Shown here piece by piece: positions 256 through 52,700 of a stretch of DNA of 64,000 bases. How positions within the stretch are numbered: position 1 is the stretch's first letter; every line of letters starts with the position of its first letter. The notes under the pieces are model-generated. The model worked only from the letters and a program-made list of their open reading frames with translations, ran no database searches and was not told the DNA's origin. The stretch is from Tetraselmis striata (Eukaryota; Chlorophyta; Chlorodendrophyceae; Chlorodendrales; Chlorodendraceae), in NCBI GenBank assembly GCA_006384855.1, contig VCJN01000207.1:62001-126000 (forward strand), written 5' to 3'. Position numbers and translations under genes: made by a program.

Positions 256-291
<36 letters not shown>

Positions 292-1883
292 CCCTCCACC
301 CACAAAAAAACTATGAGAAATTTATAAATGTGCCCCACAACCCTAAAAACAAATCACGAAACAGCTCCTAATTGCTCTAAATGGTAAACACCCCCAAATG
401 ACAGCTCTAAGCATACATGAAGTAAACCATAAACCCTAGTAACCCTTGTAGCCCTACCATGTACCCTTGGAGAACTTATGACTGACATACGTGCCTGGCG
501 TCACACCGCAGGCCTCGGCGGACACCGTGCAGGCGCCAGATGCCAAGCAGGAGCCGGTGGCATCGGACGTCGCAGGCATGGCGGAGAGCAAGGCGCCGCA
601 GCAGGCGGCCACCAGCGCGCCGCCGCCCACGTGGGGTGCCAGCCGCGGCGGCGGCAGCCGCAACCGGCCCGGAGGCAAGTTCAAGGGGATGGACCCCATC
701 ACGCCCGTCACGGACCCCGTCCTCCTGGACAGCATCTACACCTTTTATGGCATCCCGGAGTCCTTCCCGCTGCGCCAGCAGCTGGTCACGCGCTCCGGGG
801 AGCCGGACCGCCCCAAGCGCCTCAGCTTTGTGTCGGCAGCGGTGCGCGACGTGCTGGCTGCCGACGAGGACGAGAAGCTCAAGGTCATGATGACCGGCGT
901 GAAGGTGGGTGAGGCATGTCACGGAGTGGTAGAGGGTGACCAGCCAGTGCCTCAGTGATAATCAACACCATGTCATCTGTTTTTATGTATGTGCATGAGA
1001 TTGACACAAGCCCGGTTTGGGGATATTTTCGTGGTATGGTGTATATTTTGCTTTGGAGACATCATCACTGCTTGGAGGTACATCGCTCCGATTCCCCAGG
1101 CTCGCTGTGAGCTGCCTGGACGCGGCCTAAGACACGCTACCCGTTTCCGTGAACTGCAGGTGTTTGAGAGGCAGGAGTCGAAGGAGCTCAAGCTGCGCTG
1201 CAACTACCGCATCGCGCAGGAGGGCATGCCCTGCGTGCTTCCCTACCTGTCCAAGCAGGTCATCAGGGCCTCGCTCGGCACTTTTCTACGCCTGCTCAAG
1301 GTGGGGCTGCCGCACAACGCCTGCTAGCGTGATGTTCGCTGAGCGAGTTGCCATTTCATTCGCTTGACGGCTCTACTTGCGTGCGCAGGAGCGGCCGCTG
1401 CCGGTCCCTGCGGAGTACAAGGCGCCAGAGGCTGAAGAGATCCAGGAGAACAAGTTGCCGGCCGACAAGATGGAAAGCGAGAAGGATGCAGCTGCGGAGA
1501 AGAAATCCTCCTATCACACTGACACACCTCCGCTTGACGACCCTGACTGCTTGGCACAGATGAAGTCGATCCGGGTGAGTTGCTGTGCAATGAGCCCAGC
1601 ATGCAGCGACACTGCCATGATTTCCTCTGCAATCCCATCCATTAGAGCGTTCATGACGTGCTGCTTGGTGGCTTTGCAGCTTGGCTGCGCAATTGTCATC
1701 CTGAAGGACGCGGAGGCTGCGGCACTCGGGCTGGCAGGCAGTACGAGCGGCCTCTCTCCGATGACCATCTCTTGCTGGCGTGGAATCACCAGCATCAATA
1801 TCCTCGTGAGCAAGCAGGAGGCCGCTCAGCTGGTGGAGAAGATTGAGTTTGCGCAGAAGGCCACTGCATCGAAAACTGAGTAA
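1..1883 (+). CDS. NSUN2: NSUN2-like RNA cytosine-5 methyltransferase, C-terminal part (5' truncated by window edge)
   Basis: NSUN2/Trm4 enzymes methylate cytosine-5 in tRNAs and other RNAs using S-adenosylmethionine. Only the region after the catalytic domain lies here. Exons by GT-AG and frame are <1-239 (an Ala/Ser/Thr-rich linker; the donor could also be at 236), 512-904, 1160-1300, 1389-1574 and 1680-1883; exons 2 to 4 all join in phase 0. The protein resembles the NSUN2 C-terminus in order: PITPVTDP...FYGIPESFPL, then KVMMTGVKVFERQ, then RIAQEGMPCVLP, then CAIVILKD...ISCWRGITSINILV. The catalytic Cys motifs would lie upstream and cannot be seen. Exon 4 carries a Lys/Glu-rich acidic linker. 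Intron 1 (240-511) holds a 31-base poly(C) run and telomere-like CCCTAAA words. Identification is strong for the C-terminal block and weaker for the linker reading frame of exon 1. Confidence 0.85.
258..288 (+). repeat. Poly(C) run in NSUN2 intron 1
   Basis: Thirty-one consecutive C on the sense strand, about 20 nt after the intron donor. It belongs to the recurrent class of donor-proximal poly(C) runs in this window. Confidence 0.95.
300..462 (+). repeat. Degenerate telomere-like CCCTAAA words in intron
   Basis: AACCCTAAAAAC, AAACCCTAGTAACCC and similar words occur in the second half of NSUN2 intron 1. They match the complement of TTTAGGG or TTTTAGGG plant/algal telomere repeats but are degenerate. 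Confidence 0.5.
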
Positions 1884-2434
1884 TGAGACAGGCCATCGGT
1901 CTGCTGCCTAGCAACCATAAGCACGAAGAAATCTAGTGTAGTACGCTGTAAACCACAGTGTCCTGATACAAGTGTATCTCTTGTCTTCTGCATACATGCA
2001 ATCATTGTAGCTGAAGCGCTTCCACGTGTACTTGCGTTAGTGTGTAATGCTGCTCAGGTGCTGCTGGTCTGATGGCAGCACACCAAGGCTGTGGAAGCGG
2101 TTCACCACCATTGTCATTGTTTTAAATGTACATTCAGATTATCAAAATTGCGTTGCCTTTTCATGTCTAGAATCTGGCATTTTCGTTTGAATCGCCGCAG
2201 GGTGTTGTGTAGCATTAAGCATAGCATTGGTTCTGTTACTCCTCACATTAGCACCAGTAATGCCGCGTAGTGTCCATTTATTCTCTGATGCACATATTGG
2301 CTGATAATGTGCTCACTGTGGATCTCATCACAAACTTTAGCTGTTGGGTCTTGGCTTCCACCCCTGTTGAGTCTGCTTCTTCAGTGGGCAGTGTCGGCAG
2401 TGCGGCCACGGTGTTATGTCTCTTGCTTCAGGCT
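1884..2434. other. Tail-to-tail intergenic region
   Basis: This 550-bp gap separates the NSUN2-like gene (+) from the CotH-like gene (-), which end towards each other. It should hold both 3' UTRs. Apart from the TGTAA I see no further feature. Confidence 0.6.
1947..1951 (+). promoter_or_regulatory. Candidate poly(A) signal TGTAA
   Basis: TGTAA lies 64 nt after the NSUN2-like stop codon. TGTAA is the usual chlorophyte polyadenylation signal. The five-base word is short, so this rests on position. Confidence 0.45.
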
Positions 2435-5400
2435 TCAGTTGGTGTCAAAGGCACTGTCCAGCCACTTCAGCCGCCGCAGAAGCCACGCTCTCATTTCTGA
2501 CACGTTGTAGTCCCACTGATCCAGTGCGGGCGACTGGTTGCCGTGCGCCAAAATCTCCTCCCAGCGATCCAGGGTGCGGCCAGAGGCTGCGCGCACTTTC
2601 CGTGCTGTGCCATCAAAAATGGTCTTCACCCAGGCGTCCGTCAGCTTTCCTTGCCTGAGCTGCTGCCAGCGTTTGGAGGCTGACGATCTGAAGGCAGCGC
2701 TCTTCCACGCGGCCTGAAACCTGATGGAGACACAGGGAACAATGCCACGTGCTCACTGATGGCGCCAAAATACGACCAATGGAACTTGCCGAGAGGATTT
2801 ATTGTCATGCATGTAGAGGGTGGTGCTATCCTGATTGTGACAAGTATTGTTACGGTATTGCATTACACTGTTAAGCCAGGCACAGATATGCAGGCGTATT
2901 ATTATGCTGGAGCTGACTTCAAATTCATAAGTGAACCATAGCAGCATATAATCTGCAGATGTTGGGTGCATGGAGTGGGAAGTGAGCAGCAGGGACACAG
3001 CCATTGCAAAGGAGGGCGTGCAAGCCCTGGCAACTGCATACTGCTCTGGCGGCGCTGCATACCACCAGGAGATGCCATCCACCGGATCAAAGACGCAAAG
3101 CTTCAGGGTTGACTTCGCAGATGCGAAAGCGCCAGCCCTCTGGGGAGTTGCCAACGCCGCCTCCCTTATCATATCCCTACATGGCATCAACCACCAGCGA
3201 GTTGCAACGTCACCGCCATTCCAGCAAGTCATTAGATTCCGTTTCTGCCACTCATTGCACTTTAATGTACATTAACATTGGGAAATATAGCATGTAAGCG
3301 CTTCAGGACAATCGGCCACAACTATGTAATTCAGTACGAGCATGCCAATCTAAATCTGTCCAGGATCATTGCCGAGCCTCTGCCGTGCTTCCGTCAGACG
3401 TTCGAAGTCATATCAACTTTCTGTCACAAGGGATGTCGAGGGCGCTGACCTCAAAAGGGAACCCGCAGCACAGACCAAACGACTCGTTGTAGTCCCAGGC
3501 TGGTCCCATTTTCAGGCACCCACCACGATCCTTGTGCATGTACACTGATCCACGATATCCTGTTGACAGCAAGCCATATGAACGTGCCATTTAGACATGT
3601 ATACAGAGGGCAGCCGCGCACCGAGTTACAGAGGGCGCGAGCATCGTCTGAACTGCTGCTCAGGCACAGAAATCGACATATAGGTACATGTGATACCATA
3701 TGAAGAAATCAAACAGGTACATGATACTTGTATCAATTTTCATGAGGCATACCCCATGGAGCTCTAGCGCTCGTTGCAGTTGAGACCATGCATGAATCTA
3801 GTGTGCTGTGCAACCACATACACAGGCAGCAATAGATGTCTCATCACTCTCAATTACGATACCCGTTCTCAGTACTCAGTGGGTAGAGGGGGCATTTACT
3901 GAGCGTGAAATATCCTGTGTGTACACTGGTATAGGTGTGATTATGGTGAAGGGGGAACTACAGCGCTTTCTCCTTTCACAAGAGTGTGTAATATTCCCCT
4001 CTACGAGCTTCTGATCAATCAGGAGCTGTGTGGTATATTATAGATTGCAACTTGTGGATGCATTGACAGCTCTATCAAGAAGTCACGCTGCTCAAAACTA
4101 TGCCAGGCACATTGCAGCATAGGCGTGTGTTGATGGGCTCACCATCTGGATTCCGAGTGATTTCAGTAAGGATCATGTAGTCGATGAATGAAGGCCAGTC
4201 GATACATTGGCTCATCTGTGGGAGTACGGAGGGATCATCATCCCCGTACTTGTAAAGATCGGCAAGCTCGTCCTCCATACCACCCACCCACTGGCGAAGC
4301 CAGCTCAATGCAACTCCCGATTCGTCATTCCTGGGCTTCGGATACACCAGAACGAATTGAGAAGCTGGCTCGTAGCTGGACGGGAAGACGACATCTCCCT
4401 CATCGATGTTGTCATTGTCAAATTTGAAAATATATCCTCCTGCGGGTATAGCGGAGGCAAACATGAAGGATGAGCAGTGTTTCATGCGGCTTGGGGACAG
4501 CATACATATCAAGCTTGAATGGATTTCACAAACTTTTTTCTTGCATTTGAACTATTGCGCCACCCTGCATACTCGTATACTGAGTGTGACAGTCTGCATG
4601 CCATAATGTACCTAATAGGGAAGAAGACATACATACTGGTCACTGAAGAGGCTTGGTGTGCTGCTTATGATGCATTGTCATCAACAGACACAGAATGAAG
4701 TAAAGAACAATCACATCAAAACAATGGTATCAGGCGCAGACGCAGCTATTAGTTAGTGCTGTGAAAATGTCAGATTGGAAGTTGCTCCTCAACATGAAGG
4801 TAGCTCAGAAGGCTAATGATTGGGACCAAACTCCTTGCGCAAAGTAATATTCCTTGGCCAGGTAGATAACAAATACGTGAAGGTAGCTTGCAGTCGACTG
4901 GCAACACATGGTATATTCAATAGGGGGGGGGTGGGATGTAGCAGCAATGTGTATATGACACGATAGAGTATTGGCTGGTGATAAGCCAGACATGATAGTC
5001 CAAGCACCCGGAATGAATGTGTCCATCATGGGGTACAATCCGCACCAGACAAATCGTCGGCGCTCAGCTTCTGGATATCAACCCTCGATTCTGTGCGGCG
5101 GATGCTCTCTCCAAGGAGATACAGTCCCTGATAGTGGCTGCTTTCAAGGGGCGCGTTGAAGATATTGACACCGCTGCCTTGCAGTAAGAAGACCTCCACC
5201 CACTTGGTCCGTGAAGCATAGTGTCCGAGTGCCTCGCGGGCAATTTGATACGCCAGTTTGTTCCTCAGGCCCAGTGTCTTATCAGTCTCCGCACCAATGA
5301 GCACCCAATCATCGTCCGCAGGCATCCCTGGTCGAAAACAACCCAGGCACATGTAGCGGGAACATATCAGCAAATATGGAATGCGGAACAACTAAGAGAT

Positions 5401-15319: not shown

Positions 15320-15529
15320 ATGAAGCCGGACTTAAGGGGAACGCCCACTATGGACGACGAGGGCGACACGATGAGCCTCAGCCTGGACGATGGTGAGAAC
15401 CTCATGCTGTCCGGGCCGGACCTGGGCCACACCCAGCAGGACAAGCTGATAGACACCGATTTCTTCAACAAGTTCAAGGATGACTTTGACGAGAGTGACA
15501 TTAAGCCTGACAAGCCGAGGAACACCTGA
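15320..15529 (+). CDS. CSN9: COP9 signalosome complex subunit 9 (CSNAP/MYEOV2-like)
   Basis: This is a 69-residue, single-exon acidic protein. It begins MKP and ends with an acidic, aromatic tail, DTDFFNKFKDDFDESDI. The human CSN9 subunit, a 57-residue acidic protein, also begins MKP and ends with a DFFNDFEDLFDDDD-type tail. CSN9 binds a cleft in the COP9 signalosome, which removes NEDD8 from cullin ubiquitin ligases in the nucleus and cytosol. The start at 15320 is preferred over the in-frame Met at 15287 because it recreates the MKP start. A candidate TGTAA occurs at about 15845. The match rests on a short tail, so certainty is moderate. Confidence 0.7.
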   Translation: MKPDLRGTPTMDDEGDTMSLSLDDGENLMLSGPDLGHTQQDKLIDTDFFNKFKDDFDESDIKPDKPRNT

Positions 15530-22846: not shown

Positions 22847-22914
22847 CCCCCCCCCCCCCCCCCGTTAAGCATCGGTTATTCAACCCGGGGGGGGGGGGGG
22901 GGGGGGGGGGGGGG
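22847..22914. repeat. Poly(C)17 and poly(G)28 separated by 23 bp
   Basis: C at 22847-22863 is followed by G at 22887-22914. The two runs can pair as a C/G hairpin, or they mark a join between two oppositely oriented homopolymer tails. Confidence 0.9.
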
Positions 22915-25326: not shown

Positions 25327-25553
25327 TTTGTTATTTACACTTGTTCATGAGTTCTCTTGTAAATGGCGATCTTTCGCATTCTGGGCGCACGTAGCTTCTA
25401 TCAAAAAGCACAGGACCCAGCTATGCGAGCCTTAGTTTGTTATTTACAGTTGTTCATGAGTTCTCTTGTAAATGGCGATCTTTCGCATTCTGGGCGCACG
25501 TAGCTTCTATCAAAAAGCACAGGACCCAGCTATGCGAGCCTTAGTTTGTTATT
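25327..25553 (+). repeat. 109-bp tandem duplication
   Basis: Two nearly identical 109-bp units occupy 25327-25435 and 25436-25544, followed by the first 9 bases of a third. The only difference I see is ACACTTG versus ACAGTTG near the start. The near-identity implies a recent event or an assembly duplication. Confidence 0.9.
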
Positions 25554-32390: not shown

Positions 32391-32410
32391 TTCTATATGT
32401 AGGTGTATAT
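32360..32410 (+). repeat. AC microsatellite grading into AT
   Basis: About thirteen AC units are followed by an AT-rich stretch. Confidence 0.85.
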
Positions 32411-33238: not shown

Positions 33239-33264
33239 GGGGGGGGGGGGGGGGGGAGGGGGGG
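33239..33264 (+). repeat. Poly(G) run downstream of dynein gene
   Basis: Eighteen G, one A, seven G. It lies outside any recognised intron. Confidence 0.9.
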
Positions 33265-33934: not shown

Positions 33935-36900
33935 CTACTGATCAATGTTGAGGCACAGCGCCACGCCCTGCAGCACCCAGTGCGAGGGGTGCTCCGTGGT
34001 GGCCAGGTCCGCCTCAAGCACGAGGCCCACGCCCATCGCATTGCGGCGCGCCTGCGTGACATACACCGGCGCCTTGAACGTGTTGGAGAGCTTCAGCTTG
34101 GACGCCTCGATGGGGACGACCTCCATGATGGGCAGCTCCGTCACGAGCACCTTGGGGTCCTGCTTCTTGAGCACGCTGCGCTTGGTGTCCCAGCCGGCGC
34201 CCTCCAGGTACAGGCCGGTGATGTAGCAACCATGCCGGGGGCGCACCTGAGGGCAAGAGAGTGACCGATGGACGGTGAGGCAATGCCGAGACTATGGCCG
34301 ACAGGCAAGGCGGGGGGGGGGGGGGGGGGGGGGAGCTGCGGAGGAGGAAGGGGCTTCACGGGTTTGGGGTTGTGTGCATGCGACGAGGCCGCTCTCACCT
34401 TGACTTGGGACGGGTCGGTGTACTTGGTGACCTTCGTGTACAGGGTGGACTTGTCCAGCGGCCAGCCCTTGTCTCGGCAGGCAGCCTGTGGGGGCAGCGT
34501 CGCCCGCGCAGATGTTAGTCCCTGAGGAGGATGGGGACAGGAACGCGGGGCGAGAGGTGGGGGATGGGGGGGAGGAGGGGGGGGGGGGGGGGGGGGCACC
34601 TGCACAAGCGCCGCGATGTAGGTCTCCGGGATGTGGAGGCCGCTGAGCCACATGACCATCGGCTCGCCCACCTCGCCCCAGTCCTTGTACTGCGTGTAGC
34701 GCCGCTGGAACCACGTCATCCAGCTGGCGAGCATCTTGTCGGTGGCAGGGTTGAGCTTGGCCCAAATGGTGGGCAGCTGGCCGTTGAAGAGCGCGTTGGA
34801 GATGTCCTCCAGCTGGCTGGAGAAGCCGATCTCGCCCACCAGCGCGCGCCGGAGGTCGCGCAGGCTGATGCGCATGCGCACGACCAGGATGTTCCAGCGC
34901 TCGATCTCCTGCAGCAGCACCACCTGCGTGGGGCTTGGGATGGGGATCTCCTTCTTGAGCATTGGCAGGTCAAAGGGCTCCGGCAGCCGCCCCTGGATGT
35001 CCTTTGCCACGCCCGCGATGAACTCCTCGCGCGTGACGCCGCCGCCGGTGCTACCGGTGCGCGGCTGCAGGTCCACCAGGTCGCGCCAGATCTGCTTGGT
35101 CGCGTTGGTGTAGTACGAGATGTCCGCGTTGGCGTGCAGCCCAAACGCCTCAGGCGTCTGCACCAGCGGTAGCCCCTCAATGGCCTGGACATAGCTCTGC
35201 CGCGGCCCGGTGGGCGGGATGTCGTACTGCACGTGCTCGTTGGCGAAAAAGTGGAACGGCTGGAAGGTGTCGAACAGAAAGTCGCCCAGGTACTCCTCCA
35301 GGTAGGTGGTCAGGATGCGCCGATCAAACGAGTCGCTGACGCGACCGCCGTACATGGCCTCGCCGATCAGGTAGCGCAGCGTGGCCCAAGGAATGCTGTC
35401 GTCCTGCGGGACACCGGGAAAAGGGGGGGGGGGGGGGGCATCAGCCGGCGCTCCGGCGGCTGTTTTGACAGCAACACAGGGGAAGGGGGCGCGAAACAAG
35501 GGCAGGCTGCTCCGAAACCATAGCACCGCTTTGATATACTGCGGCCCGCACCATCGCGGCGACTCCGCTACTAAGCGAGTATAAGCGCTTGTAATCACAG
35601 ACATGCTCAAGTATTCAAAACAGCTACACTCCCCCCCTGCGCAACAACATGGAAAGCGCCCTGGTGAACACTCTACACCTCTGATTGCGCACAGGATACC
35701 AATGATGTGGCGCAACATCGTGTGATGGCACGAGCCCCTGCGTACCTGGAACAGGTACTAAAATAATGATAATATTATATTGCAGAAATATAGTTGATAA
35801 TTAATGTATAATAACTATAATTTGTTAGTATGACAAGTTATTATAATAATATAATAATATAAATCTTAATCACATCTAAATTCGGATATTAGGAGACATT
35901 ATTACTATATTTTGTCGGCAATATGAATTCATATGAGAACGAGACACCTCCTTGCGCTCCCAGTGCTCTTTACATACGGACCGTTCTGCGCTGCCGCAGC
36001 ATGTACGACGAGTGAGTGAGCGAGCCATTGGCCCCGGGGCAGCGCGCACCTGGTTGTCAAAGGCCTTGGTGAGGTAGGTGGAGACGAGCGCCATGGAGAT
36101 GCGGAAAGTCAGTCTCGTTGAAGTCGTAGGGCACGTTCCAGCCGAGCTTGCCATACTTGCGGCGCTCCTGCACGACGGCGTGGAAAAAGGCGAGCACGTA
36201 GATGAGCGGCCGGTTGGCGGGGTGCGGGCACTCCGCCAGGATCTCCTCCGTGATCTTGCTGTAGCTGCTACGCATGTTGAGCTTGAGTCCGTTTGGCGGC
36301 TCCGTCACGATCTTGAGCGACCGCTGCAGCACGCCCAGCGGGAACCGGTCCGTGGGGTCGGTGGTCAGCCAGAGCCGGAAGTCAGGGTGCGGGTCCGTGA
36401 TCTTCTCCAGGATCTTCTCCAGCGTCTTGAGCCAGCGGGGCAGCAGGTGGCAGTTCTGCAGCATGATCCACAGCCCGCGCGTGGCGCCCTGCTCGATGAA
36501 CTCCGCGGCCTTGGGGCCCATGCCCTGCCCCAGCGCCATGTACTTGAGCTTGGTGCCGGGCTTGTAGCCCATGAACTCGCCCAGCTTGAACACGTCGAAG
36601 CTGGGGTCCGCGCCCGGCGACAGGATGAACACGATGGGCGTCGTGCTGGTGGACTGGCGGTAGATGTTGTGGTAGTCCAGCACCGGCGGCTGCACGTACT
36701 TCTCGCCCATCTTGTCGATCACGTACCGCGTGATGCCGATCGTCACGCGGTCCATGCGCACACACCTGCATGCACAGGCCCGGTGGTGAGCGCTTGGCGG
36801 CCGGGAGAGCGGGCGACAGGCCGGAGGGGCGCCTCATGTGGCCGATGGATGGGAGCATCTGCGCCACGGAACACACCCATCCTGTGGAGAGGGGCGCCCT

Positions 36901-39900
36901 GTGGCGGGTGGGGAGTCATACCTGAGCAGGCAGAGCCTCTCGAAGCTCGTGAGGTTGTCGTTGAAGGCGCCCGGGAAGGGCGTCTCCTCCGGCGCCTCCA
37001 GGTCGTAGTACGCGTGCCAGTCTATCTCATTGGCCTCGATGTGGTCCGCCACATCGTGCAGCGGCGTCAGCTCGCCGTCCGGCCGCTTGAGCGACACCAG
37101 CCGCTGCAGGTCCTCCCAGCCCTGCGCCGCAAGGTCCGAGAGTCGGCAATGCGGCGGCGTCAGTCGGGGGCGCCGTCAGGCTGGGCTAAGGGGTGGGGAC
37201 CACTGCAGATCATCGCATGTACCTGTGACATCAGAGCACGATGGCCAGGGGCGCGGGGGGGGGGGGGGGGGGGGGGGGCTTGCCTGGTCCGGGAACCAGT
37301 CGTGCGGGCGCGGGCGGGTGCTCTTCTCCAGCGAGAGGTTGCCCTTGAGGAAAAAGTCGAGCATACTCTGGTCAAGCTCGCCCTCGCCCTCCAGCACCTT
37401 GATGGTCATCTGGAAGCTGAACATAAGCTTGTGCTTCTCAAAGAGGCCAAGGCAGGTGTAGTTGTATATGTCAAAGGTGAGCGCCTCGATCACGTTGCGC
37501 AGGCGGCCCTCCAGGCTGGCGTCCTTCTTGCTAGTCGCGAGCGTGAGGCCAAAGACGGTGAGGAAGCTGGCGAGGCTGTACTCGTACATGTTGGTGATGT
37601 TGGCGAGGCTGGACATGACGAAGAAGAGGATGGCGCCGCGCTTGGCGACCGGGCGGTAGCGCATCCGCACGATCTCAATCTCGTCCTTGGTCACCGTGGC
37701 GGCCTCCAGCTTGGACTGGATGTCCACCGCGGTGCCCTTGGCTTCCTCCAGCGTCTCGATCAGCGCACCGTTGTCCAGGATGTTACCCGTCGCCGAGCTG
37801 AGCTCGCGCAGCAGCGTGTCCTCCAGCGTCTTCAGCATCGCCTTGTTCTCGCTCATCTCCTTCACGAGCTTGCTGCGCTGCGCCTCGAGGTCAGGCCGCT
37901 CGTGCGCGACCGTCACGTTGAGCAGCTGCTCGCTCAGCCCCTGCTCCGTCACACTGTAGTTGATGATCATGGTCTTGCCGCTGATCTCGGGGCCGTAGTG
38001 CGGGTTACTCAGCTTGCTCGTCATGTACAGCCGGAAGTTGGGGTCCCACTCCACGTCCTTGTCGCCCAGCTTGACCTGCTGGCGGCCGCTGGAGGCGGTG
38101 GTGAGGTTCTTCTCCAGCACGGGGTCGATCACCGGGTCGATGTACTCGTCCAGGTTCTCCAGCAGAAAGGGGAAGCCGTACTGGATGGCAAGCTCCAGCT
38201 GCTTGAGGAAGTCGGTGTCGTTGAAGGTCTTGACCTTGCCGTCCAGGTTTTTGCCCTCACGGCTCTTGATCCAGTTCACCGCCTGCATCTGCGGGTCAAT
38301 GCACAGCGGGTAGCGGCTGGCGCGCATGGTGAGGATGCCGTTCTGGACGCTCAGCTCGTCGCTGGGCAGCCCCTCCGCCGCCCACCGCCCGCACTCCACC
38401 TCGTCCGTCAGCAGCGCCTCCAGCCGGAAGCCCTCGCTATAGGGCAGCTTGCGCTCCTGGATGTCCGAGATCCAGGTCTCGAAGATGAGGCTCTGCCGAA
38501 AGTCAAAGGTGAAGGCTCCGGTGTACGACAGAAAGCCGCTGGTGAGCAGGCAGTCGCCCACGAGCGCCGTCTTCTTGGCGCCCAGCTCCTGCAGGTCTGC
38601 CGTCCAGCGGCGCCGCTCGCTGCTGAGGCCTGCAATCAGCCGCGTCGCGGCGTCCAGCCGGCGCTCCATCAGCTCCGCCTTCTCCTTCAGCTCCTGCTGC
38701 TCCGCCGTCTTCTCCGAAAACATGGCGTTGAGGCCGGCCAGCTCCGAGCTCAGCTGCACCACCTGCTCCTTGATCTGCGCCAGCTCCTTGGTCGCCAGCC
38801 GCAGCTGCTTCTCCGCCTCCGCCACCTTCTGCCGCTTGGGGTTGACCGTCTTGGCGACGCCGTAGTAGTTCACCATCGCCGTCACCCACTTGAGCAGCCC
38901 CGCGCCGGCGGTGGACACGCTCTTGATGTCCTGCACCGTGAACTTCGAGTCCTTGAAGTACTCCTTCACCTGCTTCATCTGCTTCTCCTTCAGCCCGTCC
39001 TTGTCAAAGTCCAGCAAGGACTGCAGGAAGCGGCCGTCCGCCATCATCGCCTTGGCGCCGCTCCAGCTGACGTCCTTTCAGGCCGCGCAGGATCACCACG
39101 CACTCGCACACCTGCACGCACCGGCGCGTCAGCCCCTGCCCCCCCTTCCCCCCCTTACAGCAGTGGCAACAGCAGGCCGGGCCGGGCAGCAACAGCACAG
39201 GTCCAGGGCGGAGGAGGCGCACCTTCTGCACCAGCACGTGCGGCTTGGCAAAGGATCGGATCTCCGTGATGTCGTCCTTCTTTAGGTCCAGCAGCGCGGC
39301 CGCGGCCTCCTCCAGCGCTGGGATGGCCTCCTCCAGCGCCGCCTCTGCCTCCGCCTTCTCCACCGCGATCGTCGCGCTGTCCTTGCTCAGCTGCTCCTCC
39401 TTGATCTGCGCCGCCTCCTGCTTGCTCTCCACCTCTGCGGTGTTCTTGGTGATCACCCCGATCAGCTCATTGCACTCCACCGTAGCCTTCTCCACCACCA
39501 CCTTGGCCTCCTTCAGCTCCTTCTGCATCTCGTCCACCTCCTTGGCCGCCTGGATGAGCTTCTGCAGCCCGCCGTCCAGGCGGTTGGACATCTCGTCGAT
39601 TTGGTGGCGGTTCTCGCCCAGACTGCGCTTGTAGTTGGAGATGAAGTCGAGGTAGTTCTTGGGCGTCACGTAGTTGTACCGCCGCAGCTGCTCCTGGAAG
39701 CGCGTGCTCGCGCTGCGCACGCTCTCGTGCACGAGCACAAAGTGGCTCACGATCCCCTCGCGCGCCTCCGCCGGCAGGTCCTCCGCCTCGAGGAACACGC
39801 TCGCCACGCTCTGCAGCGCCTGCTCCGGCCACGGCTCAAACCAGTCGATCACGGTGTTATTGACCATGCCGGGGAAGTTGCGGCAGCGGCTGCGCAGCGT

Positions 39901-42900
39901 CTCGCCAACAGGGCTCATCGCCAGCACGATGTGCAGGTTGTTGCGGCACTTCTGCACAAAGAACGACCAGCAGCTCTCCTTGCTCTCCGCCAGCCCCAGC
40001 GCGCGCCACCTCGTCGCGCACGCTGCTGATCATGCTGTCTTTCTCCCCATCGTCGTACAGCGCGGGCACCATGCCGCTGGTCAGCATGTTGTTGATCAGC
40101 TCCAGGAAGCCCTCGTTGGCGACATGGCTGTCCGTGAACAGGAACATCACCTTCTTGTTGTCCTGCCCCAGCATGCTGTACAGCGTCTTTAGGTCGTCGC
40201 GGAACGCCGTCTCATCGTACCTGGCCGAAGCGGGGGCAGGGCGGGCTGCATCAGCATAGCCCCACTGGCAACGACAGCCCCCAACGACTGCCATGTCAAG
40301 AGAGGCTCGGTTGGATGGGTGTATTGAGTTTTGGGGAAGGGGGGGGGGGGGGGGGGGCGCACCCTCGCGTGAGGGTGATCTCAAAGACCTCGCAGCCCGC
40401 GGTGTACGCCGCAAGCTTGGAGAGGCTCTGCTTCCCGCTGCCGCCGACGCCGACGAGCAGTGAGTTGCCCTGGGGGAGGCGCAGCGTGCGGTGGATGCGC
40501 GTCAGGTGCTCCAGCGCATCCTCGAAGAACACCAGGTTCATGTTCTTCTTCACCGCGTTGAACTCCTCCAGGATCTCCTCAAAGGTGGACTTGATGTCAG
40601 GGTAGGTGCCGAGGTCCTGCGCGTGGAGCGGGTGGATGGGGCGAAAGGAGTGGAAAAGGATCAGCAATCCCAACAATTGCGCCAAACAACCGCTGCTCGG
40701 ACTATTCCACGAGCCCAGTCAAGCCTGGCACATGGCTGCGTAGGATAGAGATAATAAAGCCAGGCGAGGCAGTCAGATTCGTATTGTGGTGTTTCGAGTG
40801 TATGGGAGGTATTGAGCAGGAACACGCGGGCCCACCACGCTCCGAAACCATATCACCAGTTGGTGGCAGCCTCGGCCGTCGACGCCTCCGACAGGACATG
40901 CACAGGGCCGGGGGGGCGCACCTGGTACAGCCGCATCTCGCCCTCCTTGAGCGCATATTTGTAGTCGCCGAAGAGGATGGGGTCGATGTTGACGGTCTCC
41001 GCGTTGGCGGAAAAGTGCTCGCTGACGAGCTCCTTCACCTTGGCCTGCACGACCTCCTTGTCCTCCTCGCAGATGAGGCGATCGTGGAAGATGCGCAGAC
41101 TCTCGTTTCGCCAGAGGCGCAGGAACTCGCCGGGCCCGGGAAAGTGGTCCTCGCAGGTGAGGAGCAGGCCCTCGTAGATGCGGCTGAGGTCGCGCAGGTT
41201 GAAGATGTAGTGGAAGCGGCTGGGAGTGGGCGGCAGCTTCTCGACAATGTAGTTGTACAGCTCTAGCGTGACGCTGGTTAGCGTCTCGCTCATGGTGCTG
41301 CGGATGCTGTCGCTCAGCTTGGCGAGATGGCGCACGAGGATGTTCTGATAGATGGTTGACAGGTTGTCGTCGCTCGGGAACTGGATCTCGAAAACGGAGA
41401 AGAGGCTGATAAAGCGCGGGTCCACGGGGTTGCGCGCCCCGCCGGGCGGCCCCATCGCGCCCACGATCTGGATGTCCTTCATGTGTTTCCAGTTGAGGTC
41501 CTTTCCGCGGTCGTACAGGCCCGCCATGGTCGTGAACAGCTTGAGCAGCGCGATCGGCTGCTGCGTGCCGTACGTGTCCACGCGCGGCATGTTCATGTCG
41601 TCCAAGAAAATGAGCAGTTTCTTGCCCATCGGCGGCCCGTAAGTGTCCTTGGTGCGCTTCTCGGTCGCGTCCTCGATCGCGCGCTGCACGTCGGCGCTGC
41701 TGGTGCGGCTGCTAAAGTTCATGTTGAGCGCGACCGCCGTGCTAGGATCCAGCCCGTTCAGGTATGCCTGGATGGTCACGCTCTTGGCGGTGCCGCTCTC
41801 GCCCACAAACAGCACCGGCTTCCCCGTCTTGGCCACCACGTCCACCAAGAAGCTGCTGCGCACAGTGTCGACCGTCGGCACCAGAATCTTGGAGAACTGC
41901 CCGTCGGCGGGCGGCATGTACTCGGTCACAAGGCTCTTCCACGCCGTCCACGTCTTGTCGCCCAGGTCGAAGCGGTACTCGTACAGGCTCTTGGCGGGCA
42001 GCTGGCTGCAGCTCACCCGCTCCCCGTCGACCGTGCCCATGCCACTGAGGTCCTTCAGGAAGTGCTCAAAGCGGTCGCGGTCGGCATATCCCGGCCGCTG
42101 CACGATCGCGGCGCCCAGGCTCCATACCGTTGCGAAGATGAACAGCGCCTCGAGCACCTGGCGAATGGAAGGGGAGCCGCGCAATGGACAATAAGTCGGC
42201 ACGTCCAGCATTGTGAGGGGGGAACGCAATCGGCCATGGCGAGCTGCAAACGGCGATGCTGTTCCTACCCAGACCCACACCTCATGTGCCAACATTGTCG
42301 CTAAACAAAAATGCACCCGCGACGGCCATACATGCAATATTGGCTGTCGTTAAGTAGGGCCCCGAATAAACCATCTCGTGGCTGATCAGCTGGCAGCAGC
42401 GGTTATGAAGGCAGGCTGTATAGCTGGGCGGCCAAAGTGAGTACAGTGAGGCGCACCTGGGGGTCCTCCACATCTTCCCCGTCGAGGAAGGTCTCCAGCA
42501 GGCTACAGAGCTGCGTGACCATGTTGAGGTTGGTCACGGGGATGGTTTGCCGCGGGCGGCGCACGAGCTCCTCGCCGTCCAGGCCCTCCAGCACCCAGTC
42601 GATCGCGGGGCCGACGTACTTCTCAAAAAGACTGCGCAGCACGTCCTGCTCCTGCTCGTTGGTGCGCGTGTTGAGCCACTTCCAGACAAAGGGCTTGTAC
42701 CCAAGGTTGCGGCTGTCCACGTACACCATGCCGCAGCGGCTGATGGTGGCGGGGCTGGCGTACTGCAAGTCAAACACCTCAAAGAGCAGCTTGCAGTGGT
42801 TCTGCAGCCGGATGCGCTCGCCGTTCGGCAGCGTCAGCAGCTTGTTGTCGTCCATCACGCTGTTCATGTTTTCCACCCACACCGCGTCCACGTCGCCGTC

Positions 42901-45900
42901 AAACACGATGTAGCGCGCCTCGTCCTTGCCCGCCGGCAGCGGCTTGTTGAGCTCGCGGAACACGTTGGACAGCAGGCCGTCCGTCCAGTCGCGCGTGTCA
43001 GGGTCCAGCACGCCGTACAGCTCCGACACCGTGATCGCCTTGGGGTTCACGATGTGCAGGCTGGTCTTCTTGCCGAGCGTGGTCTGCGAGCGCTTGAGCG
43101 TGTTGAGGATGACACTCTTGCCGCCGCCCGTCTGGCCCACCACCATTGTGGTGTGCCGCGTCATCATCGTCTCGTACAGCTGCACGATCTTGTCCACCTG
43201 CTCGCTCGCGTCTGTCATCACCTTGTATCCATTGGCGGCCAGGTCGCCCTCCACCGCGTCGTTGAAGTCAGGGTAGCGCACGCGCGGGCAGTCCATCCCG
43301 GGGAAGAGGTCGTTGATGAGGCCGAGGAAGAGCGGCACGTCGTCAAACACAAACTTGGGCAGGTTCATGTCGCGCAACGCGCGCATCAGCACCAGCTGCT
43401 CGCTCATGTCGGGGCTGCCGCGCTTGAGGCTGCCCGCCATCACCAGCACGCTCTTCAGCGCGCGCAGCCCAAAGTCGTAGTGGTGCTGCTTGGATAGCTG
43501 CTCTTTGGCCAGCTTGTACAGCACCGTCATCTTCTTTGCCAGCACCTGCAGACCATTAGCATCGCGTCAGAGCGCCCACAATAATCAGGCACAAGAAGCT
43601 GATGACAAGCTAATAATAGTAAGCTGATCGCAAGCAAACAATAAGAAGCTGATAACACAGGCTAATAATGCTAATAGTAAGCTTGGAATAAGAAGCTGAT
43701 AATAAAAGATTAAGAAGCCAATAACAGTAATAATAACAATAGTAATAAATTAATAATTAGAAGCTGACAATATGCGAACAATAAGACACTAATAATAACA
43801 AGCTAATAATAATAAAAATAATAATAAGCTGACAATAAGCGCGGAGCTGCTCGACACACATATTGGTAAAGTAAAGGCAAGAGAGGGAGGGGGGTTCAGG
43901 GGGTACCTTGGCGGTATCAAAGCCCTCGGAGAAGAGCATGATCTCGCAGATCTGCTCTAGGTCGGGCACGACCATGGTGACGGGGCGGAAGAGCGCCTTG
44001 AGGTTGTCCGGCAGCTCCGTCCGCCCGGCGTAGCCCGGGTTCATGGTGATGAAGATTCCGGTGCGGCTATCGAGCGCGATCTCCTTGCCCTCAAACTGAA
44101 ACTTGGTGAGGTCGTTCTTGAGCGCCTCCTGGATCTGCTTGATCTGGCTGCTCACCACGCTGAGCACCTCGGCCTCGATGCGGTTGAACTCGTCAAAGCA
44201 GCCCCAGGCGCCGCACTGCACGAGGCCGCTAAAGATGGAGCCCATCGCCTTGTAGTCCAGGCCCTCCCCGCAGTTGAACACCACGCACAGCAGCGCCATG
44301 CCCTTGGCCAGGTCCTTGGTCGTCTCGGTTTTGCCCGTTCCGGCGGGGCCCGCCGGCGCGCCGCCCAGGCGGTACGTCAGCGCGGTCGTCAGCGTCATGT
44401 AGCAACGGTCGGTGAGCGCGGTGATGACGAGGCGGCCGTTGATGCCCATGTACTCATAGCCGTAGAGGAAACTGACCCGTGCACTGGCGGATAAAGATGT
44501 CATCCGTGACACGGTCCCAGTAGAAGCGCAGCTGGCTCTCCCACGCAAACTCGCGCGCATCCATGATCGAGTCGCGCACAAAGATGTCGATGATGTCGCG
44601 CGCGTGCACGTCGATGATGATGAGCTGATTGACCTTGCTGCGCACCTCCTTGCTCAGGTCCGAGCGCACCATCGTGGTCAGCTCCACCAGCTGCCCTGTC
44701 AGCTTGGCGGCAAAGTCCTTCATGCCATGCTTGTTGCCCTGCCGCACGCGGCGAAACACGTCCTCCGTCTCCCATGTCCACCAGATCTGGCTCCCCGCCA
44801 GCGTGACCATGCCCAGGCTCTCCGTGATCCATTTGGTGCGGGGCAGCTTGGCGTAGTAAAACACCCCCTCCTTGCTGATAAAATATAGCGTCTTCCTCAT
44901 CTCCGCCTCCACCGCCTGCCGCACCAGCATCCACATGGGGTGTCAGGGCCGGGACAACTGGCGAGGCGGGAGGAAGCAGAGCCTTGCACGGGCGGTGGTC
45001 AGGAGGAAAGGGAGATAACATGAGTAGCAAACGAGTATGCCACTGCCCGTACGCACCGTCATCCACGCCTCCACCGCACCCTCGATGGCCACGACCGTGC
45101 GGAACTGGAAGCTTTCGCCCTCGCTGCTCTTCATGCCAACAACGCTCTTGTTGCCGCGCCCAAAGAGCAGCTCCGCGCAGTTGTCAAACAGCTTGAGCAT
45201 GTGCTCCTGCACGCTCGTAGGGTCGGAGGTGCCCAGGATGGAGAGCAGCTCGTCATCACTGATGAAGAAGAAGCGCGGGAATGAGCACCGCTTGGTGTCT
45301 AGGTACTCGCTCAGGCTCTTCTGGCACGTCTCCAGAGAGTCGCTGAGCGCCTTGAGCGTGTCCAGGCGGCCGTCTGCGCTGCAGGCCTCCAGCACGTTGG
45401 TGTTCTTGGCCACCTCGTTCATGATCTTCTTCCAGGACGCGTCAATGGAGTCGAAACGCTTAGCCTCCTGGGGCAGCTGCTGCCGGATGTCGTCGCTGCC
45501 CACAAAGATGCTCTCCAGGTACATCCACTTGCGCTGGACCTGCACCGCAAGAGGTAGACAGGGGAGTTTCAACAAATCCGCAGGGCAATGTCGTCTGGAA
45601 GCGAGGGGCGCCCTGCGCTGATTAGCCCAGCCTCCCTCCACGTGAGGGCAGGCACGTGGATGGGTAGCCCGTTGGCAGGTGCGGCATCCGAAGAGGGCCA
45701 GGGTAGCGTTGGTGATGGCGGTGATGATGGTGATGGTGATGGTGATGGTGATGGTGATGGTGATGGCTTAAACGATGGTGATAGTGATGATGGTGGCAAT
45801 GATGGTGCGGATGGTGATGATGATGGCGATGATGGTGATGATAGTGATTGTGATGGTGATGGTGGCGGTGGTGATCGTGATGGTGGTGGTGGTCATGGTG

Positions 45901-46738
45901 GTGGTGGTGATGGTGGTGGTGATGGTGGTGGTGATGATGGCGGTGATGATGGTGGTGATGATGGCGGTGATGATGGTGGTGATGGTGTTGGTGATGGCTT
46001 AAACGATGGTGACGGTGATAATGGCAGTGATGATAACGGTGGTGATGGTGACGGTGCCGGTGATGGTGCTGATGGTATTGATGATGGTGATGATGGTGGT
46101 GATGATGATGGTGATGGTGGTGGTGGTGATGATGGCGGTGATGATAACGGTGGTGATGGTGGTGATGATCATGTGCTGGTGATGGTGGCCGGTGATGGTG
46201 CTGATGGTGATGATGATGGTGGTGATGATGGTGGTGGTGATGATGGCGGTGATGATGGTGATGGTGGTGGTGGTGGTGGTGGTAATGGCGGTGATGATGG
46301 TTGTGGTGATGCTGATGGTAATGGTGGTGATGGTGATAATGGTGCTGATAATGGTGAGGATGGCGATGGCGGTGATGATGATGATGATGATGATGTGATG
46401 GTGGTGATGGTGATGATGGTGATGGTGACGGCGATGGTGGTGACGGCGATGGTGGTGCTGGCGATGGTTGTACCGATGGTGGCGGTGATGGTGATGGCGA
46501 TGGTGGTGCTGATCTTGATGGTGGTTGGTGATGATGGTGTGGTGATGGTGCTGATGATGATGATGGCGGTGATGGTGATGGTGATGGTGATGGTGATGGT
46601 GATGGTGATGGTGATGGTGATGGTGATGGTGATGGTGATGGTGATGGTGATGGTGATGGTGATGGTGATGGTGATGGTGATGGTGATGGTGGCGGTGATG
46701 ATGATTGTGATGATGCTGACGGTGACGGTGATGGTGGT

Positions 46739-46771
<33 letters not shown>

Positions 46772-49700
46772 CTCTGCCAGCTGAGGCCGCGCACCTGCAT
46801 CCAGACTTCTGTGCACTCGCCTATGAGGCTGAGCTTCTGCTCCCACTGGCGCACCTGAGGGCATGGGTGGGAATATTTGCCGCGATGTCACCCCGGCCCT
46901 TGTAAACAAAGCAACATGCACGAGGAGGCACGCAGAGGATATGCATCGCGTCAGTTGAGGAAGAGCAAAGGGGGTGATGGGGGCGGGAGCGGGGGGGGGG
47001 GGGGGGGGGGGGAGCTGCACCTGGTCCAGGAACGGCCGCACGTAGCGCGAGGCCATCATGCTCTGCAGGTTGAGCCCCATGTCCTCCAGAAGGATGTTGA
47101 TCTCATCAGTGGCACGCAGCACCCAGCCGCGGTCCTCCGCGCCCTTGGTGTACTTAGCCACACTGAACTTCTGCTCCTTCCACACCTCCGCCAGCTTCTT
47201 CAGCTCGGTCTCGATGGTGAGCTCCTTGACGGCCGCGCTGGTGATCTCGCTGATCTCCTCGGTGTACTGGTCCAGCCGCATGGCAAACATGTTGGCCAGC
47301 GTGAACACCTTGGGGTCCATGTCAAACGTCTTGCCGGTGACCTCCATGAGCTGGTCCCAGTGCCGCTTGCGCAGCGCCTCGCTCTTGAGGTCCGACATGA
47401 GAGGCAGCGAGTTCTGGAAGCCCTGGATCGTGCTCTCCACCATCTCGTACGTGGGGATGTTCTTCAGCTGCTTGAGCTTCTTCAGCGTGAGCATCACCTC
47501 GTCCGTGCTCGCGGTCATCTTGCTGATGTCCAGCTCGCTCCACAGCATGCTGGAGTAGCTGTTCACGCTGTCCACGTGGTCCTTGTAGACCGCGTAGATC
47601 TGCGCCAGCTTCTTCATTGTCGCCTCGACCGCCCCCAGCTCAGGGTAGCTCGTCAGCGGCATCCCAAACAGCTTCTCCGCCAGCACCAGCTGCTCCCGCA
47701 TCTTGCTGTGCTCCTCCAGCTCCTCCTCAAACTCACGCATGAGGTCCAAGCCCTGCAAGATGGAGAAGAGCAGGCGCGCGGGTGAGTTTGACAGGCACGG
47801 GGGCAGACGCCCGCCATACTGTTTTTTGCGCCTTCGGGACAGGACACGCATCAGTGAAACCCTTGCAGCATCTCTACGACAGCCGTTCAGGCAATAATTA
47901 AGAATCATTCATTATTTGGAAGAAAGAAACAGAAAATAGAATACAAACCACACACTCAATAAGAGATCAAATCTCAGAATGTTTTAGAAATGGAATTATG
48001 AAACTATCAAATTGGCCTCTAATTAAGCTATACCGAAAGAATCGCTATTTTTTGTTCATAATATTTTGAAATATATTCATGAACGATTTATCATCGTTTG
48101 TGCTTTTTCCTCCTTTTTAAAAATGCTTTTACCAAGTCGACGAAAATCGATCCAGTTACAGAACGCCCTGGGTAGGCGGCGCTCCCTTATAGTCATAAAT
48201 CAAATTGCCAAAGCATTTCGCACGACTGATAGGAGGCCAGCCCACCATGATGTCGCTGTTTCACATCTGCTGCAGGCCCTGAAGCTTTTCCACGCGACCG
48301 CCTGCGACAGCGAGGCGCACCTGATCGAGCGTGATGGTTGTCAGGCCAGGCCCCTCGGCCTGGAAGCGCTCCTTGAATGTGATGAGCACCTCCTGGAAGT
48401 CCTGCACCTGCTGCTTGGTTGTCTGGCTGAACTGCTTCTTAGTGTCCTCCAGCCCGGCATCCACCAGGTCCGCGGCGTCCACCAGCTGCTGCCACTTCAC
48501 CGCCACGCTGGAGGCCTCCGCGAGCTCCGCCTGAAACTCTGCGAGCTGCTCGCCACGGGCGTACAGCACCCGCGTGCGGAAGCGCTCTTCCAGGGTGGTG
48601 TAGTCCAGCTCAATCTTCATGCATGACACGCGGATGGTGTTGACCACGTTGAGCACCGCCTGCGACATGGCCAGGGAATGTGTCAGCGCACACAGGCTGC
48701 CCTACCAAGCACAACCTCAAGGCCCCTGGCTTTGCCTCAATGACCCGTGAGGTTTTACAAGCGGGGTGGGGTCGGAGCGCACCTTGAGCTCGTCAAGCGT
48801 GTCAGGCGTGTGGTGCAGCCCGTCCTTGTAGTCCAGAATGAGGTCGTTGAGTTCCTGCAGGCGCGCGAGGTCGATGTTGCGCATGACCTTGCAGATGGCT
48901 GCCACCCAGCCCAGGCACTCGTCGCGGATGCTAGTGGCGATCGAGTGGCACGAGATGCGAATGAAGTAGATGTCGTGGTTCTTGGCCTGCGTGTACATCT
49001 CTGTCGCCAGCTTGTCGTACTTGGCGAGCTTCTCCTCAAACTGGCCGTTGGTAGGGCCCTTTATGGCGAACTTGTCCAGCATGCTCGCCTTGTCCACCTT
49101 CCACAGGCTCTGCTGGTTCTTCCAGCTCTCCACGTAGCGGTTGACGCTGCTCATGGTCTTCTGGATGCTGTTATTCAGCATGAGCATTGTCTTGATGATC
49201 TGCGGGTTAGCGGCTACGTCCCAGTAAAATGTAAAGATGACTGGCTCGTCGTCCTCGTTGCCCACACGCTGCTCCGGCGTCTCGACGCATGACCCGTCCA
49301 TCCAGCGCACAAACGGCTTGGTGCTATCTGCCAGGCTGCGCACCAGGCGGCCCAGCAGCTTGTTCACCTCGTGCACCGCAGGGCTGACGACTACCTCGGG
49401 GTTGTTCAGAGACAGGCTGATGCGGAACAGCGGGTCCTGCGTCAAGACGAGACGAGAGGTGAGGGGCGGGGGCAGGGCCAGGGCGGCTCAAGGACATCGA
49501 GCGAGACACGAGAGCTCAGCAGGAAAAGCAGCGGTAGAAGCCACCCACCCGCGCGTCCGACTTCGCCGCAATGGCGATGAGGCGGTTGAACTCCATCATG
49601 CCGCTGAGCACCATGCGGTTGAGAGCGGCGAAGATGGCGCGCTCCCAGTGCTGGTAATAGCTGACCAGCTGCGGGGAGCGCCCCGTGTTAGTGCCCGCCA

Positions 49701-52700
49701 CCGCCTCCTCCACCTTGCCAAGCAGTGGCGGGATGGTGCGGTACTTCTTGAGCAGCTCGTCAACCGCCTCGATGCGCGTCTTCTCCATGTATTCGTAGAA
49801 TTCCTGTGGCGCACAGGCTCCAAACTCAGCACAAACTACGCAGACCGTACCCATGCTGTGTTCACACATGCTCCGTCAGCCCCCCTCCCTCTCTCCCCTT
49901 CCGTAAGAAATATCAAAGTTCAAATTTCAAATATATGTATATATAATTTTTATGATATGATTCGCCCTAAACAACATACCCTTACCTGCTGCTCATGCTA
50001 GGATCATGTGAGAGCCATTGAAACATAACTGCTACAGCAGCGTGGCATGTGTGTGGTTGTCTGCGTGGCTGGCAAGGGTTTATGTGCTTAGGGTGTATTT
50101 AGGTTTAGGGTTTTAGGGTTTTCAGAGCGGCTCAGACACTGCATCTGAGGAGGCGACGTGGGGAGGGCGCCAGAGGATGGTAGGAGCTTTGAACACCCCC
50201 CCCCCCCCCCCCCCCCCCACCTGCCTGCCGCCCGTAGTACTTTGCCTTCACCCGACCCGACCGCGTGTAACCAACCCCATCATGGTAGGAGTCAGCACGG
50301 TCAGAGGGTAGCGCCCGCCACCGCACCTGCAGATCCATGGTCTCCCCGTTGGCGGAGGGCGGCTCCCGCACGGTGACAGCCGAGGCGATGGCGCCCACCA
50401 CCTTGTCAATGATGCCCTGGTTCTTCTGCACCTGCTTCAGCAGGCTCTGGAAGTCGCGGATTGCGGTGTTGCAGGAGCCGATGAAGTCGGGAATTCCAAG
50501 CGAGTTCCAGTTGAGCGGGGTGAAGCCAGGGTTGAGCGCGGCGCGCAGGCCCTTGGTGCGCTCGCTCAGCAGGTCGCGCTCAACTGGGTTGAGGCTGTCC
50601 ATGACTTGGTAGTACGCGTTGAGCATTAGGTTGATGCCATCCACGCACATCTGGTACTTATCCTCCTGCAGTAGCCAATACAAGTAACCGGGCGGCGGCG
50701 GCCGAGCGTGCGGAGGGGATGTAGGACTGCAATGGAAAGGGAACCGACATAGAGGGCGCGGGGCTTGCCTGCAGTGTGACGTTGAGCGCAACCTCGGGGA
50801 TCTTGAAGCCCATGCGGTCGAGGTAGCGTGTCTCCCTGATGAGATGGATCAGATCTTCGTGGAAGTTGACGGAGATGCGGCCAGACGCGTCCTCGCGCAG
50901 GATGGGCTGCTTGAGGTGCTCCATCGCCACCTTGTCGATGGTCTCGCTCCAGTTGCTGAACCAGTGCTTCTCAAAGTACATCATCTGCTTGGCGAGGGAC
51001 ATGTACTTCTCGTGCACGTCGCGCCCCACCTGCTCATCCATCAGCTCCGTCTCCATCACCCTCAGTGAGTTGAAGGTGTGCTTCACGCGGCTGAACACGC
51101 TGCGGCTCCACTTAATGGCGCCGGCCACTGGCGGCTGGTTGCGCGTCAGCGGCGGCTTGTTCTTGTTGGTCTCAAAGATGTCCTGCGCCAGGTCAATCTC
51201 GCGGCTGAACTGCTCCAGGATGTCTACAAACTTGCTCATCATCTGTTGCTGGATAGCGCCCTTGCTCTGGATCTTCTTGAAGCTCAGGAAGAGCTCAAAG
51301 GCGCCCTCAGCACTGCGCAGCTTGCGGAAACTGGTGTCGATCAGCTCCCGTGTGGCCACCTGACGAGCGCACACCGGCACCATGTCAGAGAATCCGACCC
51401 TTCCAGCACCCATATCCCCTTGATCCCAGGTCAAGCCACCTGATGGTCTGGCACATCTGACGGGAGGTGGATGGAGGTAGGCTTGGCGTTTGGATGGACA
51501 TTTATTGTGCAAACAGAGTGGAATATGTAACAAGCAGGGACGCATTGAAAGGTGGCGATGGCTTGCCTTGATCTTTTCATTATCCTCGTAAAACTTGGCC
51601 TTGACCTGCTCCCACTCCTCCTGCTTTTCCCGCTCAAAGATGGGGAAGCCGAGCGTCTCAATGGGCTTCACCATGTCCTGCACGCGGCCGATCACAGCGT
51701 CGATTCCCTCTGTGTCGCCGGTGACAGCCTTGAGCTCGGGGCCCAGGAACTTGTAGAAATCATCCAGGATCTCCACCATCTCCATGAGGTGCGTGCAAAT
51801 CTCGCTCATGTGCGAGGTGCGGTCAAAGAGCATGGGCCGGCTGAACTCCCAGCGCGCGTCTCGCCCGTTGGCCTCGATTGTCTCGCGCACATGCATGTAC
51901 ACGTTGTACCAGCCGTCCAGCACGCTTTTGGCGACCTGGATAAGCTGCACCGCATCGGCCGCCTGCATTCGGAACAGCCTGGTCTGGTCCACAGCCATCT
52001 CCACGCGGTTGCCGATCTCGTTGGCGATGCGCGCAAAGAGGCTGCCCATGCGCGCGTCGTCGCTGTAGTGGCGAGAGATTATCCAGACCATGCGAAGCGC
52101 GTTCATCATTGGCGGAAGCGTGTCCAATATGCCGGCTGTTTCCAAAGGCGCGGCATAGGCAGACATGGTGTCAGCAAGCCAAAATTGTCAGGGGCCAATA
52201 GGCGGAGTGTGTTGCTCTGAGAGAGCCTGGGAAAGGAGTATGGACAAAAGATTGAGGGGGGGGGGGGGGGGGGGGGGGGACAGCACCAAGCGGGCCGTTT
52301 GCGATGTTTTTAAAGTGGCGCTCCAGGGTGGTGAGAAACTTGACGTTGTCACGCGCCTCAACGCACAGCTTGGTGAGCTCACTGAACTGCGCCTTGAAGC
52401 TGACGAGCAGGTTCTTGTCCTCGCTGCCCATCTCCACCACTTGAATGATCATCTTAACGGTCGGCAGGTTGAGCTGTTCGTACAGGCTGCTAAGCGCGCT
52501 GTTGCGCTCGCGCCAAAACTCGATCTCTGCGAGCGGGCTGTTGCCGACGGGGGCCTTCTCCGCCTGCGCTGCTACCGCGGCCGCCAGCGTGGAAACCCAG
52601 TCCGCCATGGAGGACTCCAAGGTGGCGACCGTGTCGTAATCCTTGATCGCGCTCTCCACATCGGTGATGTGCACGCCGGGGATGTTGAGCTGGATGTCGC

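Follow-up and report, generated by a model that had tools for sequence, protein, structure and literature searches.

Uninterrupted poly(C) runs cluster on the sense strand of introns, directly after the 5' splice site (the donor), in the genome of the green alga Tetraselmis striata. The window, as the whole stretch of DNA analysed is called here, comprises 64 kb of one contig (C163:62001-126000) of an assembly of 224 Mb in 2903 contigs, and it was joined with other stretches of the same genome into a run survey sample of ~252 kb (251.5 kb). Among 114 introns of this sample, 17 sense-C runs of at least 12 nt lie within 30 nt of the donor, where no sense-G run is found. We tentatively favour reading this pattern as a splicing-related C-rich element, with seeds expanding by slippage and a putative PCBP-like KH protein as its reader, an explanation to which we give a little less than an even chance. 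An earlier note, made from the letters of the window, had listed C runs beside donors of an NSUN2-like gene, a kinase-RING gene and a dynein gene, and had proposed that the strand of the runs follows the gene; the listed runs are all present in the window sequence.

Position and strand of the runs within introns

Altogether, the 114 introns hold 40 runs of at least 12 nt, 28 of them sense-C and 12 sense-G. Uniform placement would leave 4.73 of the C runs within 30 nt of a donor instead of the 17 observed (p=5e-6; 0 of 200,000 simulations reached 17), and for G runs an expectation of 1.09 compares with 0 of 12. Deeper than 30 nt the strands are nearly even, and the near versus deep contrast in strand gives a Fisher p=3e-4; the strand rule of the earlier note is clear up to 30 nt from donors (17 C : 0 G) but not deeper in the introns of the full set (11 C : 12 G). 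A flat relation of runs to donor distance and strand was not seen in the ~252-kb sample. In terms of density, sense-C runs reach 4.97 per kb within 30 nt of the donor and 0.37 per kb elsewhere in the intron, a 13.3-fold difference, and a donor-proximal run is carried by 17 of the 114 introns (~15%). The excess is found both in the dynein introns alone (6 of 8 C runs near the donor, 1.5 expected, p=5e-4) and in the modelled introns alone (11 of 20, 3.2 expected, p=6e-5). Moreover, when all modelled introns are taken unfiltered and before the dynein corrections, the counts are 20 C : 1 G near donors and 38 C : 33 G deeper.

Introns were called by a two-strand gene model trained on this sample, in which C/G runs had been made neutral by masking; non-dynein donors are gene-model predictions, counts are small, and exact run lengths may be off. 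The main count takes the modelled introns supported on both sides plus 18 dynein introns, the filter being applied to 254 flanked modelled introns and consisting of a length of 50-1200 nt and exon scores above 5 on both sides. Nine dynein introns that were weak in the model and bore no run flag were removed by hand, and the four introns of the second NSUN2 copy, including the window's own NSUN2 intron, were also taken out of the count; a set of 118 introns, used in tests of donor strength and intron similarity, keeps both NSUN2 copies. From the 104 runs of the sample, 64 fall outside the 114 introns. The sample is partly non-random: 40 kb of contig C2 (L031-L034) was picked after this contig appeared in the run listing, and the search for runs itself supplied four 3-kb pieces (L003, L006, L011, L015) with five runs. 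As a control, equally masked random intron windows served as decoys, of which 11 of 139 lay within 30 nt of a donor, with the exon-score filter not applied. Masking is not the source of the donor effect, because the decoys are rarely near donors and equally masked G runs show no excess there.

The axonemal dynein heavy chain gene of the window, on the minus strand, has chain 8glv_Cn as its best PDB match (628.6 bits for one reading frame); entry 8glv is the Chlamydomonas axoneme. Donors were verified here by aligning spliced junctions to 8glv_Cn, and the C run starts 7, 8, 23, 5, 5, 3 and 65 nt after the aligned donors of introns 2, 9, 10, 15, 17, 20 and 21, respectively, in agreement with the distances given in the earlier note. 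Intron 2 (52136..52286, donor GTGCTG) carries C24 at 52256-52279, intron 9 (46855..47020, donor GTGCAG) C22 at 46991-47012, intron 10 (45540..46794, donor GTGCGC) C31 at 46741-46771, and intron 15 (40221..40362) C19 at 40339-40357. The list continues with intron 17 (37122..37283), a GC-AG intron with donor CAG/GCAAG and C24 at 37255-37278, intron 20 (34486..34599, donor CAG/GTG) with C20 at 34577-34596, and intron 21 (34247..34398) with C22 at 34312-34333. The alignment is ungapped at the junctions of introns 2, 15, 17, 20 and 21, as well as 9; at that of intron 10 there is a 14-residue gap, the missing exon start being later located in the DNA beside the true acceptor. The first gene model had misplaced three dynein introns (those with the runs at 37255, 46741 and 52256), which homology corrected. 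By gene model only, two further claims of the note agree with our reading: intron 19 (35404..36049) has its C16 (35423-35438) 19 nt upstream of the acceptor, and intron 5 (49804..50326) is the strand exception, with a sense G23 (50196-50218) 108 nt from the donor. Within intron 10, a ~1 kb degenerate TGGTGA-type repeat (window 45710-46736) comes directly after C31, and the first modelled dynein intron contains a short telomere-like string (53230-53275; TTTAGGG and TTTTAGGG units).

In the NSUN2-like gene, on the plus strand, C31 (258..288) starts 18 or 22 nt after the donor, depending on the choice between two overlapping GT sites (GTGCTT at 240 or GTACGT at 236), which fits the ~20 nt noted before; a NSUN2 PUA domain was found in the reading frame downstream of the run. 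The 3' half of this gene is tandemly duplicated (L035:843 onward on C163; window 1-2301) with 95.7% identity over 2.4 kb, and both copies contain the poly(C) run at different lengths, C40 and C31. In the kinase-RING gene, C17 (11670..11686, plus strand) comes directly after CAG/GTGCG, at the 5 nt from the donor already proposed; this is a donor-side reading only, which was excluded from the counts, and the reading frame before the run resembles, by its motif, the end of a kinase domain.

Origin of the runs and the C-rich zone after donors

The sample is loaded with such tracts. C/G runs of at least 12 nt amount to 104 in ~252 kb, far above chance, and A/T runs of at least 10 nt to none, which restricts the expansion to C/G homopolymers in the sample. 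Modelled exons hold 4 of the 104, and for two of these the dynein sequence around them later proved to be intronic. With a threshold of 18 nt there are 72 runs in 251.5 kb, or 286 per Mb, compared with 396 G/C tracts in the 100 Mb of C. elegans and 200 in the 3.3 Gb of human, as given in the available part of a report on that nematode (PMC2211496). Start positions of C20 across the whole genome number 133,329 + 131,439 = 264,768, the sample having predicted 251,229, and the extrapolated total is ~53,500 runs of at least 20 nt. The run-length spectrum falls steeply to a trough at ~9-14 nt and then shows a second hump at ~15-28 nt, suggestive of repeat slippage pushing C/G tracts beyond a threshold. 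Although homopolymers are error-prone, an assembly or base-calling artefact is an unlikely source of the runs because sequencing errors are blind to gene strand and donor position; moreover, both NSUN2 copies keep the run with different lengths, and we give this possibility very little credence.

Introns without runs are also C-rich beside their donors. In 69 run-less introns C accounts for 393 of 966 positions (40.7%) at +7 to +20 versus 4106 of 14824 (27.7%) in mid-intron (p=6e-17), and within the first 30 nt C tracts of at least 4 are enriched 3.8-fold and G tracts 1.2-fold, with no enrichment of A and T tracts. The long runs resemble an extreme form of this general donor-proximal C preference. 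Counting short C tracts as seeds, the ratio of long to short tracts is 17:50 near donors versus 11:134 elsewhere for seeds of at least 4 (p=8e-4), and it is also higher near donors for seeds of at least 5 (p=0.026).

According to the explanation that we favour, the first ~30 nt of the intron would act as a C-rich element in splicing, and the protein bound there, probably of the PCBP/hnRNP-K-like KH type, would help to define the donor. Slippage would stretch C seeds to runs of 15-40 nt, tolerated or favoured beside the donor, and G runs arising there would be removed, as they could fold onto donors or mimic them. The link to splicing put forward in the earlier note finds support in the clustering of C runs, but not G runs, at donors and in the C-richness of run-less introns at the same place; a splicing function itself is a prediction from sequence. 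As for the PCBP-like factors that it had invoked, a search for a poly(C)-binding candidate among the 18 KH_1 profile matches of the genome led to a multi-KH gene on contig C4 whose best PDB match is PCBP2 (E=8.7e-17) and which may, judging by this similarity, bind such runs. In this gene itself, C26 begins 3 nt downstream of what looks like a donor (locus L052, CAG/GTG). Another KH locus, L051, presumably FUBP-like by its motif, was set aside. Like C-rich (PCBP-type) intronic splicing enhancers, the runs put C-rich sequence on the RNA strand close to a splice site. In the accessible part of a human minigene study, C-rich pentamers just downstream of the 5' splice site enhanced splicing, with poly-C of at least 4 downstream of the site named as a class of strong enhancers (PMC8789036), and exons enhanced by alphaCP are described, in what is available of another report, as flanked by C-rich motifs (PMC4797308).

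Several results weigh against this explanation. Outside dynein, donors were predicted with a gene model trained on this very sample, and at one locus (L041) a modelled donor with weak support, GTGGGG, is followed 14 nt later by a G run. Donor-like sites are also enriched upstream of G runs when the trained donor matrix is used in a motif-only scan (threshold 3): C runs have 20 sites in the nearest 15-nt bin versus 12.6 expected, and for G runs the counts are 22 and 24 in the first two bins. The G-run signal is probably due to run edges like GTGGGG mimicking donors; the motif-only argument is unreliable, and run-masked gene models were therefore used. The even strand ratio of deep runs depends on contig C2, as described below. 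Donor strength and C content are uncorrelated in 74 run-less introns (rho -0.08), +5G occurs in 9 of 18 near-run donors versus 75 of 100 others (p=0.046), and a generic matrix rates near-run donors as weaker (p=0.005), which the trained matrix does not (p=0.16). Predicted donor accessibility is 0.27 with the C run, 0.29 with a sequence of intron composition in its place and 0.23 with the run deleted (n=6). Two candidate roles found no support: compensation for weak donors, for which the donor-strength results were mixed, and better donor accessibility via the C run, since folding showed no gain over neutral sequence. On the side of the factor, KH genes are widespread and a candidate among them discriminates little; furthermore, most alphaCP-linked motifs are located 5' of the exon, with a motif only 3' in 42 of 749 exons, in the part of the study at hand (PMC4797308). 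Finally, with seeds of at least 6 the long:short ratio is 17:10 near donors versus 11:15 elsewhere (p=0.17); this comparison is not significant and seeding alone may therefore suffice.

This last result fits a purely mutational origin, in which donor-adjacent C-richness is unrelated to function (the consensus GTGCGC already runs into C), seeds slip and the resulting runs are functionless. We regard it as unlikely, albeit a possibility to be taken seriously: run-less introns hold C seeds beside their donors, several runs start right after the donor consensus (at 3, 5, 5, 5, 5, 7, 7, 7 nt and so on) and the same type of run occurs outside modelled genes. However, the 13.3-fold enrichment of long runs exceeds the 3.8-fold of C tracts of at least 4 in run-less introns, and slippage without function gives no reason for the C-richness of the zone. 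It is also conceivable, if very doubtful, that negative selection alone is at work, purging donor-near G runs as decoy or folded donors and leaving C runs over. That none of the 12 sense-G runs lies near a donor agrees with it, as does the lower predicted donor accessibility when G replaces the run (mean 0.16 versus 0.27; n=6, one rose). But zero is unsurprising by chance at 1.09 expected, and purging of G cannot lift the density of C 13-fold.

An effect of transcription on the DNA, be it R-loop avoidance, an i-motif or pausing at a template-strand G-quadruplex (G4), would favour C on the sense strand. R-loops and i-motifs, both suggested in the earlier note, are not favoured because the strand bias is absent beyond 30 nt in the full set, with or without filtering, and such effects predict no concentration beside donors. 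When C2 and the run-search pieces are removed, however, 77 introns remain, with 11 C : 0 G near donors, where the effect persists, and a deeper ratio of 11 C : 4 G; the evenness in deep introns is thus largely due to C2, and a weaker strand bias there may exist. On account of this ratio we raised our estimate for a transcription-linked effect slightly, to a level that is still low. Intragenic tracts of C. elegans are biased in the same way, with G on the non-coding strand by 84 to 47 in the consulted part of the source (PMC2211496), whereas in mammals the G-rich motif close to 5' splice sites is found by preference on the non-template strand, the reverse of the algal bias, according to the passages seen of another (PMC9065059). 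Contig C2 (L031-L034) differs from the other loci in having many deep sense-G runs in its introns, and the strand mix may vary by region.

Mobile introns (introners) carrying the run, also raised in the earlier note, have next to nothing in their favour beyond being reported, in the portion available of PMC9860276, chiefly from lineages that evolve fast, green algae among them. Of the flanks of the 104 runs, 11 are similar to another flank of the sample, and the NSUN2 copies account for two of the 11. A family of near-identical introns was not found among 118 introns (the sample being ~0.1% of the genome): mutual matches between run-bearing introns are limited to the NSUN2 copies, which represent a tandem duplication, and one weak 25-nt pair (E=0.002), and the remaining match of a run-bearing intron is 19 nt to a run-less one. 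On this sample we give a mobile origin very little credence.

Further runs and loci

Of the other runs of the window, C27 (17896..17922) and an inverted pair of C17 and G28 (22847..22914), 23 nt apart, have no trusted gene context, and for the pair a long C/G hairpin is possible; the string AAGCATCGG flanks the C17 of this pair on both sides. Four window runs lie outside modelled genes, starting at 33239, 57655, 57671 and 59131; the second and third form the tract G15 C G28 (57655..57698), and the last is a C20 (59131..59150). The window also has a 109-bp unit in 2.1 copies with 99% identity (25327-25553), and a scan of it with Rfam gave 0 matches at gathering scores.

Additional loci were fetched for KH or dynein homology and not for their runs, with donors read from exon matches, and their five runs stand outside the counts. 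Besides the C26 of the KH gene, a dynein paralogue (L054) has two runs close to apparent donors, C17 after 13 nt and C21 after 6 nt, and a further locus (L053) has G21 at 43 nt and C22 ~100 nt after an apparent donor. No run was found in the homology-fetched fragments L051, L055 and L056 (in the latter two, none of at least 9 nt). L055 and L056, both dynein-like, lie on separate contigs with 99.3% identity to each other and may be haplotigs or the product of a recent duplication.

Relation to known systems and significance

A first parallel is offered by the C-rich enhancers of mammals that depend on PCBP (alphaCP), with which the alga shares sense-strand C-rich intronic sequence near splice sites and a PCBP-like KH gene (PMC8789036, PMC4797308, both as far as available). 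The algal runs differ in being uninterrupted over 15-40 nt and present in ~15% of modelled introns, with a function that is here putative, and in lying beside donors, whereas the mammalian PCBP motifs are mainly found, in the same partial sources, in the 3' polypyrimidine tract. With the G/C tracts of Caenorhabditis the likeness is in long poly(G)/poly(C) in introns and intergenic DNA and in the commoner sense C, and the over-representation of C/G runs of at least 18 nt in non-coding DNA described there is also found in the algal sample. No position bias inside introns is reported for the nematode in the text consulted (PMC2211496), whereas in the alga 17 of the 28 C runs lie no farther than 30 nt from the donor. 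A third parallel, the G4 motifs of mammalian splice junctions, consists of G/C-run sequence enriched near 5' splice sites, more so at weaker sites, with G on the non-template strand and thus on the opposite strand to that of the alga, as described in what is available of PMC9065059. Sense-G runs near donors are accordingly not a feature of the alga, where they amount to 0 of 12 in the supported set and 1 of 34 in all modelled introns. The U-rich element downstream of 5' splice sites is bound by TIA-1. Both this element and the algal runs are homopolymer-like pyrimidine tracts after the donor, with C instead of U in the alga. The open-access papers found, for most searches only the best few, include no description of poly(C) beside donors in an alga.

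In its boldest form, the splicing explanation would make the poly(C) after 5' splice sites a genome-wide, length-variable and donor-defining enhancer read by a multi-KH PCBP-like protein. Slippage would render its tract length tunable, and this length would evolve fast and modify the splicing of thousands of introns; we consider this rather improbable as a whole. Long poly(C)/poly(G) tracts are usually regarded as rare hazards, and this genome is a natural test bed for homopolymer expansion, for its tolerance by the cell and for C-rich definition of 5' splice sites outside animals.

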